From the NCBI GenBank assembly GCA_003116975.1, contig BGKB01000022.1, positions 186,001 to 250,000 on the forward strand: DNA of 64,000 nt, in the 5' to 3' direction. Origin of the DNA: Aurantiochytrium sp. KH105 (lineage: Eukaryota; Sar; Bigyra; Thraustochytrida; Thraustochytriidae). The notes below the pieces were generated by a model, which searched no databases, was not told the DNA's origin, and saw only the letters and a list, made by a program, of their open reading frames with translations. The position numbers and the translations under genes were made by a program. Shown here piece by piece: positions 11,005 to 62,618 of this stretch (position 1 is the stretch's first letter; each line of letters opens with the position of its first letter).

Positions 11005-11439
11005 GGAATTCCTTTTTCTTTTTTATGTAAACCTAATCAACAAACAAACAAACAAACAAACAAACAAACAAACAAACAAACAAACAAACAAACAAACAAA
11101 CAAACAAACAAACAAACAAACAAACAAACAAACAAACAAACAAACAAACAAGATTTGATGTCCAATCCTCTTGGGAAAACGAGTACTGTCTGACTTGTTG
11201 GCTCTCTCTTTTCTTTTCCCACACCATCATCCATTCATTTCTGCATCTGTTCATTCATACCAGATTATTTCACGTGACCGATTTCACATGACTGATTTCG
11301 TCTTGGCGACAAGAAAGAAGGGGTCATGAGAACATGCATGAGCGACCTTGATTGTCAAGTTCTTTGCCACGACACAAACCAATTCGCTGCATTTGTTCCA
11401 ACATCAACATAATTACTGTTTTCTCGGGTCACGAGCATC
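11005..11439. other. Intergenic space between convergent genes
   Basis: It contains the (CAAA)n tract and then a near-repeat pair, TTTCACGTGACCGA and TTTCACATGACTGA (11267-11294). Apart from the shared 3' ends of the two flanking genes nothing else is evident. Confidence 0.7.
11037..11151. repeat. (CAAA)n microsatellite
   Basis: About 28 uninterrupted CAAA units, directly behind the stop codon of the PRP4-type kinase gene, so probably within its 3' untranslated region. The purity suggests recent expansion. Confidence 0.95.
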
Positions 11440-30622: not shown

Positions 30623-31536
30623 TCTCGCTGACACTCGCATTCTCACGGTTGACGGTTGCCTTGGCCCCTTTTCCATTTTCTTCCTTTTCGCGATGAAAAG
30701 GTTTCGCTGCGATCAAACGTCATGCATGACATCATCAATCGAACCTACGTGTCGCCGCAGGACCCTCCCTCCCTGCTCGCCAAAAAAATTATCGGTCGCC
30801 GACAGCCGCGACCTGTGTAGCTAGCTAGAGCAAAAAGGATACGTTTAACTAACCTCCCGCTCCTTCAAGTTATCGCCGCTTCTTGCCGAGGCTGCAGCTG
30901 CTGCAGCTGGTGCGGCTGCGATGCGCGGCGATGCGATGCGCGGTGATGCGATGCGCAGGCGACGGTTGACTCGTGTCGCTGTCGCAGGTCGACGCTGGCC
31001 GCGCATTGCGCAAACATTCGCTGCGGGAGACCTCTCGGTCGGCACGGCCGAATCTTGCTTGCTTAGCCCGCGCCCCTCTGCGCCAAGCTTTGCCCGCGCC
31101 CCCGTACCTCATCCCTCTGGCGCGCCTCTGCGAAGGGGCGCGGTCAGCGCTGTGGCCAAGAGGCCCGCGAGGAGAGGTACAGGCAGACGCAACCACTGGG
31201 ACCCTTCGTGCCACGTGGGAGGGGTAGCGGCGGGGTCTTTACTCACAAAATACACGCAGTGGAGGAAGAGCAGTGGCTTAGGAGGGCGGAACGCGCGACG
31301 AGTTTCAGAGTGCGCGCGCGGAGCCACCCATTTCTTCGATTCAACTGAGTCCCGCAGCTCGACGGGAATCGTGAAAGAAGGAGAAAAGAAAGAAAAGAAA
31401 CGAAGAAAAGAAAGGCAAGAAAGGAAAGGAAAGGAAAGGAAAGGAAAGGAAAGGAAAGGAAAGGAAAGGAAAGGAAAGGAAAGGAAAGGAAAGGAAAGGA
31501 AAGGAAAGGAAAGGAAAGGAAAGGAAAGAAAATATT
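30623..31536. other. Intergenic space ending in a purine repeat
   Basis: It contains a CAGCTG cluster near 30890, a tandem of GCGATGCGCGGTGATGC-like units at 30915-30960, and the long purine repeat. No gene is supported. Confidence 0.55.
31375..31530. repeat. (AAAGG)n purine microsatellite
   Basis: About 20 perfect AAAGG pentamers (31417-31527) preceded by a degenerate GAAAAGAAAG section. It is all-purine on the + strand and touches the 3' end of the minus-strand WW-domain frame. Such mirror-symmetric tracts can form triplex DNA. Confidence 0.95.
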
Positions 31537-55554: not shown

Positions 55555-56982
55555 TTAGGATTTTGATGTAGCTTGCCGAGAGACACGTACCTCCTCGTAA
55601 ATCGAGGAGGCAGTGGAAGACAAAAGGACCAGGAGACCAAAAGCCGTATGAATCAACAAAAATACAAGAGTGTCGTCTCCTGAGCTTGCGGGGGATCCTG
55701 AATGGAAGGAGTTTATTGGACGGATATCTTCAAAATGACGGAGTTTGGCCTTTGTACATACATAGCAGACGTACACCACAAGCTCTGACAAGATGAATAG
55801 GTTTAGCTCTTGTGTACGAGAGTTGGGTGTTGGAATGGCCTTGACTACAAGTGCAAAGCTGAGACAAAAGTGTGCTGCAGATAGGGCCTTTAGCAAGGGT
55901 TTTCTGTGATCTTGTACGCTCTGTATCACAAACAGACCCAACGCAGTGTATATGATGACAAGAAAGGCCATTGCAAGCACACGCTCAAGCACGACCAAAG
56001 GAGATGCTTTTCGTGTGGGTGTCCTATCCATTGCTATGTGGATTGCGGCCGGAACAAATACTGCCATACCTCCGAATATGAGCTCCAAAGAATCAACATC
56101 AGAAGCATCTCGAAAGAGAAGATTGAAAGCGAAGCAGGCGGTTGCAATCCCCCGAAAGAGGTTGGCAGGCGACTTTGGGATAGAACAACCAATTCGAAAG
56201 AGACAAGCCAAGACAAAGAGACCTGCCAAAATCTCTTGCGCCGAAGACATGCGTTTCTCATCGGTCAGAAACGAGCAACAAGCAGAAGCGGCTGCAAGTT
56301 CGTTTGGATACTCCACTGGTATTTGCAGACGTTTTGCATCCAATATGAGAGTGCAAAGCGCGTAGAAATTGAGCTCTTTCATTCCCTCAAAAGTCATGTG
56401 CTGGAAAAGTCGTAGCCTCCCTATGACACCGTTGTATGTTCTCCCGCTTGCAGCCTGTTCCTTTAGCATTGCAAGACAGACTTTAAGGATGACAATTGCA
56501 AGGAAACACAGGAATAGTAGGCCGAGCAGTGAATTGTCTCCTGACGTCAAGTTGTTCGACATGGACTGTCCCGATTGAACCTCCTGCGAGGTTTGTCCTG
56601 CCAAAGACTCTGAGGCATGGTCAGTTTCTTTGACTGGAATCTGCTCAGAAGAAGAAGAGGGGGGTGACGAGGGCGATACGGATGATGATATCTTCTTGGA
56701 GCGAGCCTGCGGGGTTTTGGAACGAGTCCGCCGCTTTCGGCCAAGTTTGGATTGTGGCGCAGAAGCCGCTTTGAGGACAGCGTCGTAACTCTCGACTTGC
56801 GTCTTGAATCCATCGTAAATGAGGTCTTTGCGCGTCTCCCACGTGTTGTGTTCGTCGTCGTGATCTTCCCATTTGACGAGGTACTCTTGTACGGTCGCGC
56901 CTTTCCGCTTGACCTTGCGTCGGCTCAAAATTTTCTCAATGTGGACATGCTCGTCGTCGTCGCTCGATGACTCGTGCCTCAT
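55555..56982 (-). CDS. Chromodomain protein with multi-span membrane region (copy A)
   Basis: The first ATG is at 56982 (MRHESSSDDDEH), giving 475 residues. A chromodomain lies at about 12-68 (HIEKILSRRKVK ... QEYLVKWEDHDDEHNTWETRKDL). The aromatic cage positions read Val13, Trp38 and His41, so only one of three aromatics remains. A basic, then Ser/Pro-rich linker follows (about 75-150). Seven or eight hydrophobic segments span about 155-465, for example LLGLLFLCFLAIVILKVCLA, VLAMAFLVIIYTALGLFVI and FLLIHTAFGLLVLLSS. Chromodomains bind methylated histone tails, but a polytopic membrane fusion is not a standard family known to me. An inner-nuclear-membrane site is inferred. Copy B lies 0.5 kb further along on the same strand. 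Confidence 0.85.
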   Translation of the reverse strand: MRHESSSDDDEHVHIEKILSRRKVKRKGATVQEYLVKWEDHDDEHNTWETRKDLIYDGFKTQVESYDAVLKAASAPQSKLGRKRRTRSKTPQARSKKISSSVSPSSPPSSSSEQIPVKETDHASESLAGQTSQEVQSGQSMSNNLTSGDNSLLGLLFLCFLAIVILKVCLAMLKEQAASGRTYNGVIGRLRLFQHMTFEGMKELNFYALCTLILDAKRLQIPVEYPNELAAASACCSFLTDEKRMSSAQEILAGLFVLACLFRIGCSIPKSPANLFRGIATACFAFNLLFRDASDVDSLELIFGGMAVFVPAAIHIAMDRTPTRKASPLVVLERVLAMAFLVIIYTALGLFVIQSVQDHRKPLLKALSAAHFCLSFALVVKAIPTPNSRTQELNLFILSELVVYVCYVCTKAKLRHFEDIRPINSFHSGSPASSGDDTLVFLLIHTAFGLLVLLSSTASSIYEEVRVSRQATSKS

Positions 56983-57529
56983 GGTTTGAGGCGAGGTTTT
57001 CCTCAAAGCGAAGCGAAGAAGGAAAGCAGGACAAGCGCGCGCCGCGAACAGAGACCCGCGTGAGACAGTCTGTCTTTTCTTTTGCGAGCAACGCGCAGTA
57101 TCGTTGTGTGGCCAAGGTTAGCTTTTGGATTTCTAGTTTCTCCAAATCTTTGTTTTTAGTTTTCCAAGACGCAGTTCATTAGAGCGATCGACAGCGAAAT
57201 GGCGTTCTCACGTGCTAAAAGCACTTGAAGCCTGCAGACTTTACGCCATTTGGCGAATAAGATCATGACTTTAGACAAGAATCTTCTTTTCCGATAATGC
57301 TTTGACTCCTCTGAACGTTTATTTTGGTGTATAAAAAGAAAGCAATGCAAAAGGGGTACGTGTTGGCCTTGCGCTTGACGCATATTTTCTTGTCGAGATG
57401 ATCACCCAGTCTACCCAAGCCTAGGCCTAGGCCTCACGAAGGCATCATCATGCATGGGTTCATCCTTTTGCCTGCCTGCCTGCCTGCTTTACTTTCCTTT
57501 TTGCGCGCTGTCACAGCTGAAGTAGCACC
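56983..57529. other. Intergenic space between the two chromodomain genes
   Basis: It contains the palindromic run CCTAGGCCTAGGCCT (57420-57434) and (CCTG)n (57471-57487). The rest should hold the copy A promoter and the copy B 3' end. Confidence 0.6.
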
Positions 57530-58981
57530 CTAGGGACGGTGGAACATGATGGCAGAGCACATGAAAAGGACTCCATTGGTAAGCCCGAGAATGTTGTGCA
57601 GAATATCAAAATGAGGCAAGGTGACGTCATGCATCTGGCCATCGAAGCCTGCAACCTGAAAGGTCTCTGGGCCCGGAATCTTGCCCGCATGCTTGGGATG
57701 AAGCTTTGCCAACGCCACCATCACATAGAGTACGCCGCAAACGGTTCCAGCGAGCTCAAGCGAGAGATAAAAAGGAGCACCGCCTCGAGACCCAACGAGG
57801 CTTGCGAGGAAACGCGCCAGTCCCCGGCAAACGTTGAAGAGGGCGATGGTGCCAGTTCCGTACAGGTACCTGGTATCGAAATCGGCATTTTCCTGTTCGT
57901 ACTGCTTGTATACGATGGCAAGAATGGCCACGAAGCCCAGGACGGAAAGAACATTTGCAATAGCATCCGCCATTTTCTTCTTACGGAGAGCGTGCTCCTT
58001 GGTAGGCGTTCTTTCATCGCCAGAAAAGAGAGTCAGGAGGACGAAGAGCTGCCAGAGGAGGAGCGTAAAGATGTGCTTGGAGAATTCGCCGGGCTCGGTC
58101 ATGTTACTCTCAGGGAACACCTTGGCTGTGGCCTCTACAAAGAAGGTCATGGCAATCCAGATCATGACGACAGCCGAGAGAAAAGCAAAGTCGGTCGAAT
58201 GCCCGTAGCGAAGGGTGTAAAGAGCAGAGATGACCATTGGCGCTGGGTCCGTGAGAACTGACGCCATGTGCAGACGCTGCAAGTCGGTTACCTCATTGTT
58301 AGTCTTGCCATCTGGAGCAGTGTATTTGAGGTCCATGCGCAGAATCTTCCAGGTGACGCTGAGAAGCCACGAGCCGAGGAAGAGAAGGAGGAAGTGAGCC
58401 GCAAAGTTGCCCGAGGTCGCGTTGGCAATGTCCTGCTGCGAGAGGTTTGCCGCGAGTGCCGCCTGATCCTGAAGGGCCGAGGCGTCATCCGTGACATCCT
58501 CCTCACCTCCATCATCTTCATCGTCGTCCTCTTCTTCGACGTTATCGTCGGCTTCTTGGACCGCTTCCTCCTCCTCCTCGTCTTCCTCCTCGGCCACATC
58601 TTCGTCGCCGTTCTCCTCTTCCTCTTCCTCTTCTTCTCCTTCTTCTTCTTCGTCATCGTCGTTGCTCTTTGGGGGAGTGCGCTTGCTCGGCGTCTTGGAG
58701 CGACGACGCTTTGAGAACGTAGACTTGGAGGTCGTGGCAGTGCTCAGACTGGCATCGTGTTCGTCAACTTCGCGGGTGTAGCCATCGGCGATCAGGTCTG
58801 TGCGCGTCTGCCAGGTGTTGTCATCGCTGTCGTAACCTTCCCATTTAATGAGGTATTCGAACTCAACGCGGCCGCCGTCAAGCGGGATCTCACGACGCGA
58901 CAAGATGACCTCAATCTTGTAGTCCTCTTCTTCCTCGTCGCCGATGATCGCCTCCTCGGGGGCGAGCTTCTCGGCGGCCAT
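57530..58981 (-). CDS. Chromodomain protein with multi-span membrane region (copy B)
   Basis: The first ATG is at 58981 (MAAEKLAPEEAI), giving 483 residues. The chromodomain at about 20-75 (YKIEVILSRREI ... EFEYLIKWEGYDSDDNTWQTRTDL) keeps all three cage aromatics: Tyr21, Trp47 and Tyr50. This is the arrangement HP1 uses to bind trimethyl-lysine on histone H3. A basic patch with SKTPSKRTPPK (about 95) leads to a very acidic linker (about 105-175). Then come seven or eight hydrophobic segments (about 195-480), for example FLLLFLGSWLLSVTW, VVMIWIAMTFFVEA and FTLLLWQLFVLLTLF. Copy A is alike in layout and length but diverged. An inner-nuclear-membrane chromatin tether is the simplest reading, but it is inference. 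No enzyme motif is seen in the membrane part. Confidence 0.87.
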   Translation of the reverse strand: MAAEKLAPEEAIIGDEEEEDYKIEVILSRREIPLDGGRVEFEYLIKWEGYDSDDNTWQTRTDLIADGYTREVDEHDASLSTATTSKSTFSKRRRSKTPSKRTPPKSNDDDEEEEGEEEEEEEENGDEDVAEEEDEEEEEAVQEADDNVEEEDDDEDDGGEEDVTDDASALQDQAALAANLSQQDIANATSGNFAAHFLLLFLGSWLLSVTWKILRMDLKYTAPDGKTNNEVTDLQRLHMASVLTDPAPMVISALYTLRYGHSTDFAFLSAVVMIWIAMTFFVEATAKVFPESNMTEPGEFSKHIFTLLLWQLFVLLTLFSGDERTPTKEHALRKKKMADAIANVLSVLGFVAILAIVYKQYEQENADFDTRYLYGTGTIALFNVCRGLARFLASLVGSRGGAPFYLSLELAGTVCGVLYVMVALAKLHPKHAGKIPGPETFQVAGFDGQMHDVTLPHFDILHNILGLTNGVLFMCSAIMFHRP

Positions 58982-59682: not shown

Positions 59683-62208
59683 TTACATGAGCAGGCACTT
59701 TGAGTTGGAGCGCATGAGCTCGGCGTCAGATGCGTCGAGCGGGAGCTTGCCGCGGCGGTATCTGTTGAGGATGTCAGCCTGGAGCGCCTTTTCGTCGACG
59801 TGGAAGCTGAGCACGCGGGAAATATCCGTCATGTGGTCAAAGATGGCGACGAAATCGTCGAACTCGGGCATGTCGCTGGGCAGGACCTTGACTTTGTGGA
59901 CATCGGGAAGCTTGCGCTCTTCGTTGGCAGCAATCTCAGACTCAGACTCGGCGTAAACGACGCCCGAATCCGGGGTCCACACGGGCTCGTGTGTGGCAGT
60001 GCGAATGGTATCGAGATCGAGCGGCTTCCAGATGCCGTGTTCTGGGTCCAGCACTTCATTGGCCCCGCCTCCAAGGCATCCGAGACGCTCCTGCACGTCG
60101 CGCTCGAGGAGCTGCGAGACAAAGAGAGCGACGCGCTTGGGGAACCCTGGCGGGTAGTGAACAGGCGCGTGCAGAGTGGCCTCGTTACGTGAGCTGTAGC
60201 CTGTAAAGCGGCGCGAGAATGGATTGAAGCCCGCAAAGAGTTCGTAGACACAAACGCCATAGCTCCACCAGTCAGCATCCTGGCCGTAGCGCTCACCGCT
60301 GAGGACCTGCGGGGACCAATAGCCCACAGTGCCGGCACGTCCTCGAATAAGCTTGCCGTTGCCAACATTGACGGCGAGGCCAAAGTCAGAGATGCGGCAG
60401 CGACCTCGAGCGTCGAGCAGAATGTTGCGCGGTTTGAGGTCACGCATGACGTATCCGAGGGAGTGGATGTGACCGAGGCCGTGCGCAATTTCTGCCGCAT
60501 AGACGAGCGCACGTTTGTGCGGGAGGGGTCCCTTTGACAAATGGAAGCGAAGATCGCCGGCAATGGCAAGAGGGAGCACAAAGTGAAAGGACTCCTTTGT
60601 CTGGTATGCGTAGAGGAGGCGCATGCAATAGGGAGAAGGCTTGTTAGCAAGAGCTTCCAGAACCCGTCGTTCGGACTTGACTTGAGAAAAGGTGCGACGG
60701 AATTTGACAAGCTTTTTGGGCATGACCTTCATGGCCATGGGGCGGCCAGTGTGCATGTGCATGCAGGCATACACACGGCCCGTCGCGCCGCGACCAAGCA
60801 CGCGCAGCTTGGTAAAGTGCGAATCCTGTACAGGGCGCATTGCAAATGACTTGATGCGGCAGTAGTTGCGCATGGAGGCCTTGTGTGCACAGAAGCGAAG
60901 GAACATGGGTTCGCAAACGGTGCTAATGAGAACCTCGATGGCTTCGTTGAGGCCGATTGTGCGCTCCGAGTGCAACTTGCGCAGCGAGACAATCTGCCGT
61001 CGGCGCTCCTGCGCGCGAAGATGATTAATGGAGTTTGCTCTTCGAAGCTTGGTGACGGCGCTTGTGAGGGGAAGGTCGGAAAACGTGCTGGAGAATCTCC
61101 GGCGGTCTGTCTCGCCAACTCGCGACGTGCGCCTACCGTTGGAGTCGGCGTCGTCGTCGGCACCGTTCTTCAGAGCGCGGGTAGCCTCAGTCCCTTCGTC
61201 TGCTTCGTGTCCGTCAGGGAAATCAGAGATGGAATAGGCATCATCGTCGTCGTCGTCGTCGTCGTCAATCTCGTGGTCGACTTCGCCATCGAGTTCCTGA
61301 TCATCTTGGTTTCCGTGGTCATTTTCGTCCTGTTCCAGCGGGTCGAGATGGTCAGGAAGGCAGCCAAAAGCCTCCTCACGCGAAGCTGGAAAATCGATGG
61401 AGCCGACGCTGCCGGGCAAGCGGCGCACGCGCAAAAGCGAATGAAACTCGTCGTCTGGATGATCGACAATGGTGCTCGCCTTTTTCAAAAGCTCGGGGAC
61501 GGGGAAATCACTGCGCGATGCGTTTTCGTCGTTGGCACCGATGAGTTCATCTTCATCATCTTGAGTGGCCCGATCTGGTCCAGACTCTGAATCCTTGCCT
61601 TCGTCGCTGCTGCTCGCAATTGCAGCGGCGTCGCCCGAGTCGTGCGCCATGGCCTCGTCAAGTACAGAGGCGAGAGTTTTTTGCACGGCAGGGTCGAATC
61701 CGTGGGCAGAAAGACCACGCAGAACGGGTTCGAGAATGTCGAGATCGTAGTGACGAATGAGGAGCACGACGATGCTGCGAGAGACGGAGTTAGAAGGATC
61801 TGCGCGTTTTCGCGCGTAGAACGCGTTGACAAACTTGAGAAAGGTGGCTTCGTGCTGATCGGGGAGTCCGTGGATGGAGGAGTCGTCGGAGAAGCTCGAC
61901 ACCGAGGTGGTGTCATCCAGTATATCATCGATGAGTCCAGCGGAGTCTGTGGCTCTAGAGAGGGGTGTACCGCGTTGTTCTTCGGCGGTATGTGCGAGCT
62001 TGTATTCGAGATCAGCGAATTTTCGGAGAAACCATACGCCAATGGGCTCCTTGATGAGGGTGTGCAGGTCGACGTCGGCCATGCCCGTGACTTTGCGTGA
62101 GGACAAGGTCCGCGGGAGCTCGGGAATGCGGCGGATCGGGCGCCGCTTCAGGTCCAGCATGGCCTCCTTGTACTTGGCCTCATGGAGGATGGTGGAGAGG
62201 TCTTCCAT
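59683..62208 (-). CDS. GRK-like RGS/AGC protein kinase with CaaX box
   Basis: The first ATG is at 62208 (MEDLSTILHEAKY), giving 841 residues. An RGS-like part begins at about 45 (VDLHTLIKEPIGVWFLRKFADLE, core LIKEPIGVWFLRKF) and resumes near 120, followed by an acidic insertion (about 185-380). The kinase domain runs about 455-740: GRGATGRVY, AMKVMPKK, MRDLKPRN (about 586), SDFGLAV (about 606), GTVGYWSPQ in place of the usual APE, and DWWSYGVCVYEL. The RGS-AGC layout is that of G-protein-coupled receptor kinases, which phosphorylate activated receptors. The protein ends CLLM, a CaaX box for prenylation as in some vertebrate GRKs. Regulation at membranes is thus likely. The large acidic insertion is unusual. 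Confidence 0.85.
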   Translation of the reverse strand: MEDLSTILHEAKYKEAMLDLKRRPIRRIPELPRTLSSRKVTGMADVDLHTLIKEPIGVWFLRKFADLEYKLAHTAEEQRGTPLSRATDSAGLIDDILDDTTSVSSFSDDSSIHGLPDQHEATFLKFVNAFYARKRADPSNSVSRSIVVLLIRHYDLDILEPVLRGLSAHGFDPAVQKTLASVLDEAMAHDSGDAAAIASSSDEGKDSESGPDRATQDDEDELIGANDENASRSDFPVPELLKKASTIVDHPDDEFHSLLRVRRLPGSVGSIDFPASREEAFGCLPDHLDPLEQDENDHGNQDDQELDGEVDHEIDDDDDDDDDAYSISDFPDGHEADEGTEATRALKNGADDDADSNGRRTSRVGETDRRRFSSTFSDLPLTSAVTKLRRANSINHLRAQERRRQIVSLRKLHSERTIGLNEAIEVLISTVCEPMFLRFCAHKASMRNYCRIKSFAMRPVQDSHFTKLRVLGRGATGRVYACMHMHTGRPMAMKVMPKKLVKFRRTFSQVKSERRVLEALANKPSPYCMRLLYAYQTKESFHFVLPLAIAGDLRFHLSKGPLPHKRALVYAAEIAHGLGHIHSLGYVMRDLKPRNILLDARGRCRISDFGLAVNVGNGKLIRGRAGTVGYWSPQVLSGERYGQDADWWSYGVCVYELFAGFNPFSRRFTGYSSRNEATLHAPVHYPPGFPKRVALFVSQLLERDVQERLGCLGGGANEVLDPEHGIWKPLDLDTIRTATHEPVWTPDSGVVYAESESEIAANEERKLPDVHKVKVLPSDMPEFDDFVAIFDHMTDISRVLSFHVDEKALQADILNRYRRGKLPLDASDAELMRSNSKCLLM

Positions 62209-62618
62209 CGTGCTCCTGAGGTTCGCGTGCAGGCGGCCGGCCGCGTACAGCCCGATCAATGGCTGGGGAGGGCTCACAAGTCCAGCACGTGCGCCTGCGT
62301 CTGCGTTCTCGCGACGCGAGACGCGGGGGGTAGAAGCGCGCGCGCCGAGGAGAGGAGGGAGGGGGTTCGGGGAGCCGGGCTAGGAGGGCTGAGGAGGTAG
62401 GGCGGCGCGCGAGGGCGGCGCGCGAGGACGGCCCTGTTACGGTCTGCCTTGCTGGCGCGTGCCGCTCTACTATACTTATTAACGCCTGCCGAGGGGAGTG
62501 TGCACCGCCCCAGGACGAGTAGGGCCAAAGTACGCGTGCGCTCGCCTGCATGTAGGTCGAAACGAATGAGTCGTCACATGCTACAGGGAGTCGGGCTCTG
62601 GCGCTCGCGGGAGCTGGT

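Follow-up and report, generated by a model that had tools for sequence, protein, structure and literature searches.

The window analysed here is a 64,000-nt stretch of contig BGKB01000022.1 from the thraustochytrid Aurantiochytrium sp. KH105. It contains two neighbouring open reading frames (ORFs), P1 and P2, each of which encodes an N-terminal chromodomain, a charged linker and a region of seven hydrophobic segments. P2 (57530..58981, minus strand) is 483 aa long and P1 (55555..56982, minus strand) is 475 aa long, both counted from the ATG. The genes are arranged in tandem, with P2 read from 58981 to 57530 and P1, 547 bases further on, from 56982 to 55555. Each start is the first in-frame ATG past the upstream stop, with 46 (P1) and 73 (P2) ATG-free codons between stop and start. 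An initial annotation of this DNA had described same-strand neighbours of 475 and 483 residues, and its coordinates, strand and lengths are exact.

Contig C12 carries a second intact copy of the pair, and the two regions are 95.0% identical over 9.8 kb. The C12 copy of P2 (L009:4281-5735, minus strand) encodes a protein 98% identical to the window P2; for P1 (L009:2291-3724, minus strand) the identity is 91%. Because most matches in our genome searches come as near-equal pairs, the C12 copy probably represents the other haplotype of the window region. In both paralogues and both copies, a single open frame runs from the chromodomain to the last hydrophobic segment. All indels are in-frame, and the one in the P2 linker is a whole codon. 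The fusion of a chromodomain to hydrophobic segments is real, and at least P2 is maintained.

Chromodomains and the aromatic cage

Chromo (PF00385) is the sole Pfam domain above its curated cut-off in either protein. It matches P2 with E = 1.7e-8 (34.7 bits versus a cut-off of 25.1) at residues 19-83 (58733..58927, minus strand) and P1 with E = 4.4e-12 (46.2 bits versus 25.1) at residues 14-67 (56782..56943, minus strand). The N-terminal chromodomains of the initial annotation are therefore well founded, with scores far beyond chance. In phmmer searches of the PDB, HP1-type chromodomains come first, with CBX5, Swi6 and HP1 among the matches. The best match is Swi6 for P2 (2e-8) and CBX5 for P1 (1e-8). 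AlphaFold2 gives P2 a confident chromodomain, with a block predicted local distance difference test (pLDDT) score of 82–90 over residues 21-80 in a model whose overall mean is 41.9. In Foldseek this model matches the chromodomains of Chp1, CBX and CDY with a probability of 1.00; the best E-value is 0.014 and none is below 0.001.

HP1 positions that form the methyl-lysine cage can be located in P1 and P2 by alignment to HP1-type chromodomains. P2 has Y21, W47 and Y50 at these positions in both copies. P1 has V13, W38 and H41 in the window copy and I15, W40 and Y43 in the C12 copy, so neither has all three aromatic residues; V13 sits just ahead of the Pfam-called domain. An acidic stretch precedes the first cage position, as in HP1 and Swi6. 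Such a cage is common to methyl readers (PMC8638923). P2 is a credible methyl-lysine reader because its cage is complete, and P1, with a partly lost cage, is less so.

The chromodomains also share ILSRR and LIxDG[YF]-like stretches with eEF3. A comparison of sixteen short sequences, with shuffles, led us to reject an eEF3 origin, since pairwise scores favour Swi6, CBX5 and CDYL.

Linkers and membrane regions

The linkers are charged or Ser-rich, in agreement with the initial annotation: that of P1 is basic and Ser-rich, and that of P2 starts basic and turns strongly acidic. Both contain an RSKTP motif within a basic cluster adjoining the chromodomain. The basic part of the P2 linker (58670..58729, minus strand) includes RRRSKTPSKRTP, which by eye resembles a nuclear localization signal (NLS) and has two TP sites; an acidic run comes next.

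We defined a hydrophobic segment as 19 residues with a mean Kyte–Doolittle value of at least 1.2. By this measure each of the four protein versions has seven segments, and the two paralogues agree in their order. They occupy residues 193-478 of P2 (57548..58405, minus strand) and residues 155-456 of P1 (55615..56520, minus strand), and no segment lies upstream of residue 193 or 155, respectively. The initial annotation had counted seven or eight segments. Hydropathy bears out seven; under most settings a toy Viterbi topology model, which is cruder, admits a smaller number.

Neither protein has anything besides Chromo above the curated cut-offs of Pfam and NCBIfam. Searched alone, the P2 membrane region matches no Pfam family up to E = 10; the P1 region matches two families at E = 0.03–0.06, far under cut-off. 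We rejected a cation diffusion facilitator match to the P2 region (E = 0.11, 11.8 bits versus 82.35) as chance, and a Pfam NPR3 match at residues 89-200 of P0002 (E = 0.005, 16.2 bits versus 27.5), mostly in the linker, as compositional. P1 and P2 also have no match to an ERG4/ERG24 reductase-type domain, no Chromo_shadow in the Pfam scan up to E = 5 and no Tudor domain, the chromodomain standing in its place. The initial annotation had proposed a chromodomain fused to a multi-span part that lacks an enzyme motif; we recognise no enzyme or transporter family, and the spans are probable. Searching the rest of the genome up to E = 10 turned up no paralogues of the membrane regions apart from one match at E = 4.4. 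AlphaFold2 models the P2 membrane region as helical with low confidence: almost all of it is below pLDDT 50, and in a separate model of it 294 of 296 residues are below 50 (mean 38.2).

Duplication and selection

The chromodomain and linker of P1 and P2 are 36% identical over about 140 residues (E = 2e-16), and their tandem duplication is well supported by sequence. The membrane parts are another matter. Their local alignment score was reached by 9 of 500 plain shuffles and 39 of 500 class-preserving shuffles, and hhalign aligned just 34 columns (probability 1.4%, E = 0.036). The similarity is statistically weak and limited to the first span and the next loop. Common descent is still likely for the membrane parts because the number and order of segments are alike, although the toy topology model accepts unequal span numbers in the two proteins. 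The tandem duplication put forward in the initial annotation thus stands for the chromodomain and linker, and for the membrane part it is weak in sequence.

To compare the window and C12 copies, we counted synonymous (S) and non-synonymous (NS) differences by the Nei–Gojobori method, with dN/dS as the ratio of non-synonymous to synonymous rates. P2 as a whole has 23 S and 7 NS differences (dN/dS 0.08). Its membrane region (residues 191-483) has 19 S and 0 NS, with a neutral probability of 1.4e-12. This region is under strong purifying selection, and its frame therefore belongs to a maintained gene. The remaining P2 differences fall in the linker (3 S, 4 NS) and the chromodomain (1 S, 3 NS, none at the cage).

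P1 as a whole has 23 S and 43 NS differences (dN/dS 0.59, neutral probability 0.035): 4 S and 8 NS in the chromodomain, 5 S and 7 NS in the linker, and 14 S and 28 NS in the membrane part, which is near neutral between copies (dN/dS 0.65, neutral probability 0.14). The membrane parts of P1 and P2 differ in these counts at P = 4e-7. An adjacent kinase-like gene, used as a control, has 46 S and 22 NS (dN/dS 0.14). This ORF (59683-62277, minus strand) encodes 864 aa, appears AGC-type by eye and contains acidic runs. P1 is at most weakly constrained, though its frame is intact in both copies, and is better regarded as a duplicate that is diverging than as a partner on a par with P2. The idea that both proteins are anchors is not supported: P2 alone combines a complete cage with a constrained membrane domain, and P1 is near neutral.

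A possible chromatin tether and its alternatives

Our preferred reading, to which we give an even chance, is that P2 tethers chromatin to the inner nuclear membrane by reading methylated histones, as an analogue and not a homologue of the lamin B receptor (LBR). With its intact Y-W-Y cage, the chromodomain would recognise a methylated lysine in a histone tail. The linker, NLS-like and basic at first and then acidic, would bridge the nucleoplasmic gap and help the protein into the nucleus, where its seven (or eight) spans would anchor it in the membrane. P1 would then be the tandem copy, with a partly lost cage and relaxed constraint, perhaps serving as a partner or variant reader. In favour of the tether are a chromodomain of HP1/CBX/Swi6 type, both by sequence and by the P2 fold, the complete cage in both P2 copies, purifying selection on the P2 membrane region, the basic cluster beside the chromodomain, the lack of an earlier hydrophobic segment and an anatomy that parallels LBR.

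LBR consists of a Tudor domain, an RS region, a second globular domain and eight spans (PMC5617974). P1 and P2 parallel it in an N-terminal domain of methyl-histone reader type, a basic linker and a probable multi-span body. The parallel with LBR drawn in the initial annotation is supported. P1 and P2 differ from LBR in using a chromodomain instead of a Tudor domain and in having a membrane body with no ERG4/ERG24 match.

CEC-4, a perinuclear chromodomain anchor of Caenorhabditis elegans, is not known to have a membrane-spanning domain, whereas the reader of P1 and P2 is fused to hydrophobic segments. A P2 tether would work like LBR or CEC-4 and be a member of neither family. HP1, Swi6 and CBX proteins have the closest chromodomain sequences, and P1 and P2 differ from them in carrying a membrane region and in having no chromoshadow match. 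They also differ from MRG-1, the C. elegans H3K36me reader, which is soluble and of chromo-barrel type.

Several observations weigh against the tether, and topology is its weakest link. The toy topology model, run at three penalties on four protein versions, scored an outside N-terminus (N-out) above an inside one (N-in) in 12 of 12 version-by-penalty comparisons. At the lowest penalty it accepted 5–6 spans in P1 and 6–7 in P2; at the highest the number fell to as few as one. The loops that follow segments 1 and 3 have a basic character, and the residues ahead of segment 1 do not. With seven spans, these basic loops favour N-out, a predicted topology that would put the chromodomain in the lumen. 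The inner nuclear membrane location proposed in the initial annotation is not supported. Outside topology, the 1 S and 3 NS differences in the P2 chromodomain do not demonstrate constraint on it. Relatives of the pair are absent from the viral and prokaryotic DNA collections scanned, where absence means little. The genome also gave no match to Chromo_shadow, Pre-SET or VEFS-Box, and hence no HP1, SUV39 or PRC2 signature, in searches that had no positive controls.

Were there an eighth span, lying between segments 1 and 2, the N-terminus would face inside, as in LBR. A candidate site there is a short hydrophobic stretch common to both paralogues, ALxTL, and AlphaFold2 models short helices between these segments at pLDDT below 50. 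About 190 residues precede the first segment of P2 and include no signal-like segment, which argues against translocation. A luminal chromodomain in a seven-span N-out/C-in protein with no role in chromatin seems improbable to us, despite the charge bias and the unanimous model. No hydrophobic signal-like segment lies ahead of residue 155 or 193, both P2 copies retain the cage, and we know of no precedent for a luminal chromodomain.

A stronger competitor, unlikely but deserving more weight than a luminal N-terminus, is a protein of the endoplasmic reticulum or another cytoplasmic membrane that exposes its chromodomain to the cytosol, where it would bind a non-histone ligand, as the eEF3 chromodomain probably does on the ribosome. 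The eEF3-like ABC protein of this genome is an example of the chromo fold away from chromatin. The P1 cage is incomplete, and by eye the residues that follow the chromodomain core look like those of the eEF3-like protein, though Swi6, CBX5 and CDYL score higher pairwise. Against this, the Y-W-Y cage of P2 is complete and the eEF3-like chromodomain has no complete one in the same alignment; histone readers give the best matches in sequence and in fold; and the linker is basic and NLS-like. It is very improbable that the fusion is an annotation artefact, with a chromodomain exon and a membrane ORF on separate mRNAs that merely abut in frame. Introns are possible, but the frame is continuous to the last segment in both paralogues and copies, with in-frame indels only.

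Whether a tether would be specific to heterochromatin, as initially annotated, depends on the mark that it reads. We surveyed the genome by six-frame profile search, which is blind to introns, so that an intron-split chromodomain could escape. Chromo has 17 matches: four are the pair in its two copies, ten fall to SNF2 remodellers (two each on C39, C217 and C26, and one each on C3, C19, C41 and C16) and three to eEF3-like ABC proteins (one on C20, two on C131). These assignments rest on Pfam scans of ORFs for C3, C41, C39 and one C131 copy, on equal scores for C19, C16 and C217, and on reading of translations for C26, C20 and the second C131 copy. The eEF3 name is presumed from the architecture. 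P1 and P2 are the only chromodomain proteins found outside these two groups.

SET has 37 matches. We scanned nine ORFs with Pfam, taking one per pair from the nine pairs that scored highest (18 of the 37 matches; 19 weaker ones were left out), and compared three of them with the PDB. L022 is SET1/MLL-like (best E 1e-47, with EZH2 chains next at 7.5e-27), L029 and L034 are SDG2-like, L024 has an NSD-like PHD and L026 is ASH1/NSD/SETD2-like, with an AWS domain under cut-off. The small SET protein L028 is nearest to MLL3 (3e-17), with EHMT2 at 4e-8, so that any class for it is tentative. L032, PRDM2-like under cut-off, L036 and L038 have no class; L028, L036 and L038 have SET alone in Pfam. Five of the nine thus look like H3K4-type (SET1/MLL, SDG2) or H3K36-type (NSD/ASH1/SETD2) enzymes. 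None of the nine could be recognised as an H3K9 or H3K27 writer, which does not establish absence from the genome. The inner-membrane marker MSC (PF09402) likewise had no match, in a search with no positive control.

An anchor that reads H3K9me or H3K27me, a special case whose probability overlaps with that of the tether as a whole, is on this evidence doubtful. It is favoured by the HP1-type chromodomain, whose best matches are H3K9me readers, and by the HP1/Swi6-like acidic stretch before the cage. It is disfavoured by the missing Chromo_shadow, Pre-SET and VEFS matches, and by the resemblance of the classified SET proteins, among the nine ORFs scanned, to SET1/MLL, SDG2 and ASH1/NSD/SETD2. 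L028 and L022 do also match EHMT2 or EZH2 chains, with far weaker E-values than for MLL chains. Nothing in the census points to H3K9me or H3K27me rather than H3K4me or H3K36me as the mark read. Until that mark has been identified, we advise against calling the proteins heterochromatin anchors. Replacement of LBR, also suggested initially, is not supported either: ERG4/ERG24 reductases are present (six matches), the two such ORFs scanned have no Tudor domain, and one genome cannot show a loss or a replacement.

At the level of sequence, the pair suggests that chromosomes may be tied to the nuclear envelope in a manner so far unrecognised. If the tether is correct, the LBR principle of a histone reader on a polytopic body was invented independently in stramenopiles with another reader and another membrane family. 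It would offer a direct handle on chromatin positioning in nuclei outside animals, and P2 with its cage residues would be a testable single-protein tether. A bolder and rather unlikely extension is that, in a lineage lacking recognisable HP1, SUV39 and PRC2, the sole chromodomain reader that is neither a remodeller nor eEF3-like is an integral protein of an undescribed polytopic family that ties chromatin to the envelope and may read H3K4me or H3K36me, marks of active chromatin, in place of a heterochromatin mark. In the open-access papers searched, no title or abstract start among the matches listed concerns a chromodomain fused to membrane spans, and we found nothing on thraustochytrid chromodomains or on a ‘transmembrane chromodomain’.

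Other features were seen along the way. The eEF3-like ABC protein, with its inserted chromodomain, is present as three copies or fragments (L011:4031-5500, minus strand, L010 and L012, on C131 and C20). The two on C131 are on opposite strands, and the loci contain stretches of 305, 26 and 1 N. A SNF2 remodeller ORF on C39 (L063:1-6291, minus strand) has a bromodomain and an ARID domain together with two chromodomain stretches. On two contigs there is a PfaA-type match that scores 930 bits against a family cut-off of 1010, and within a few kb of it an opposite-strand ORF of 2081 aa that matches the same model more weakly. We take this to be the arrangement known from thraustochytrid polyunsaturated fatty acid synthases; the model also matched 11 of 14 control genomes, none above cut-off, so the score and the arrangement are what point to a thraustochytrid. 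The window itself contains two long microsatellites, AACA x 28 at 11039-11151 (100% matches) and GAAAG x 31 at 31383-31532 (91% matches).

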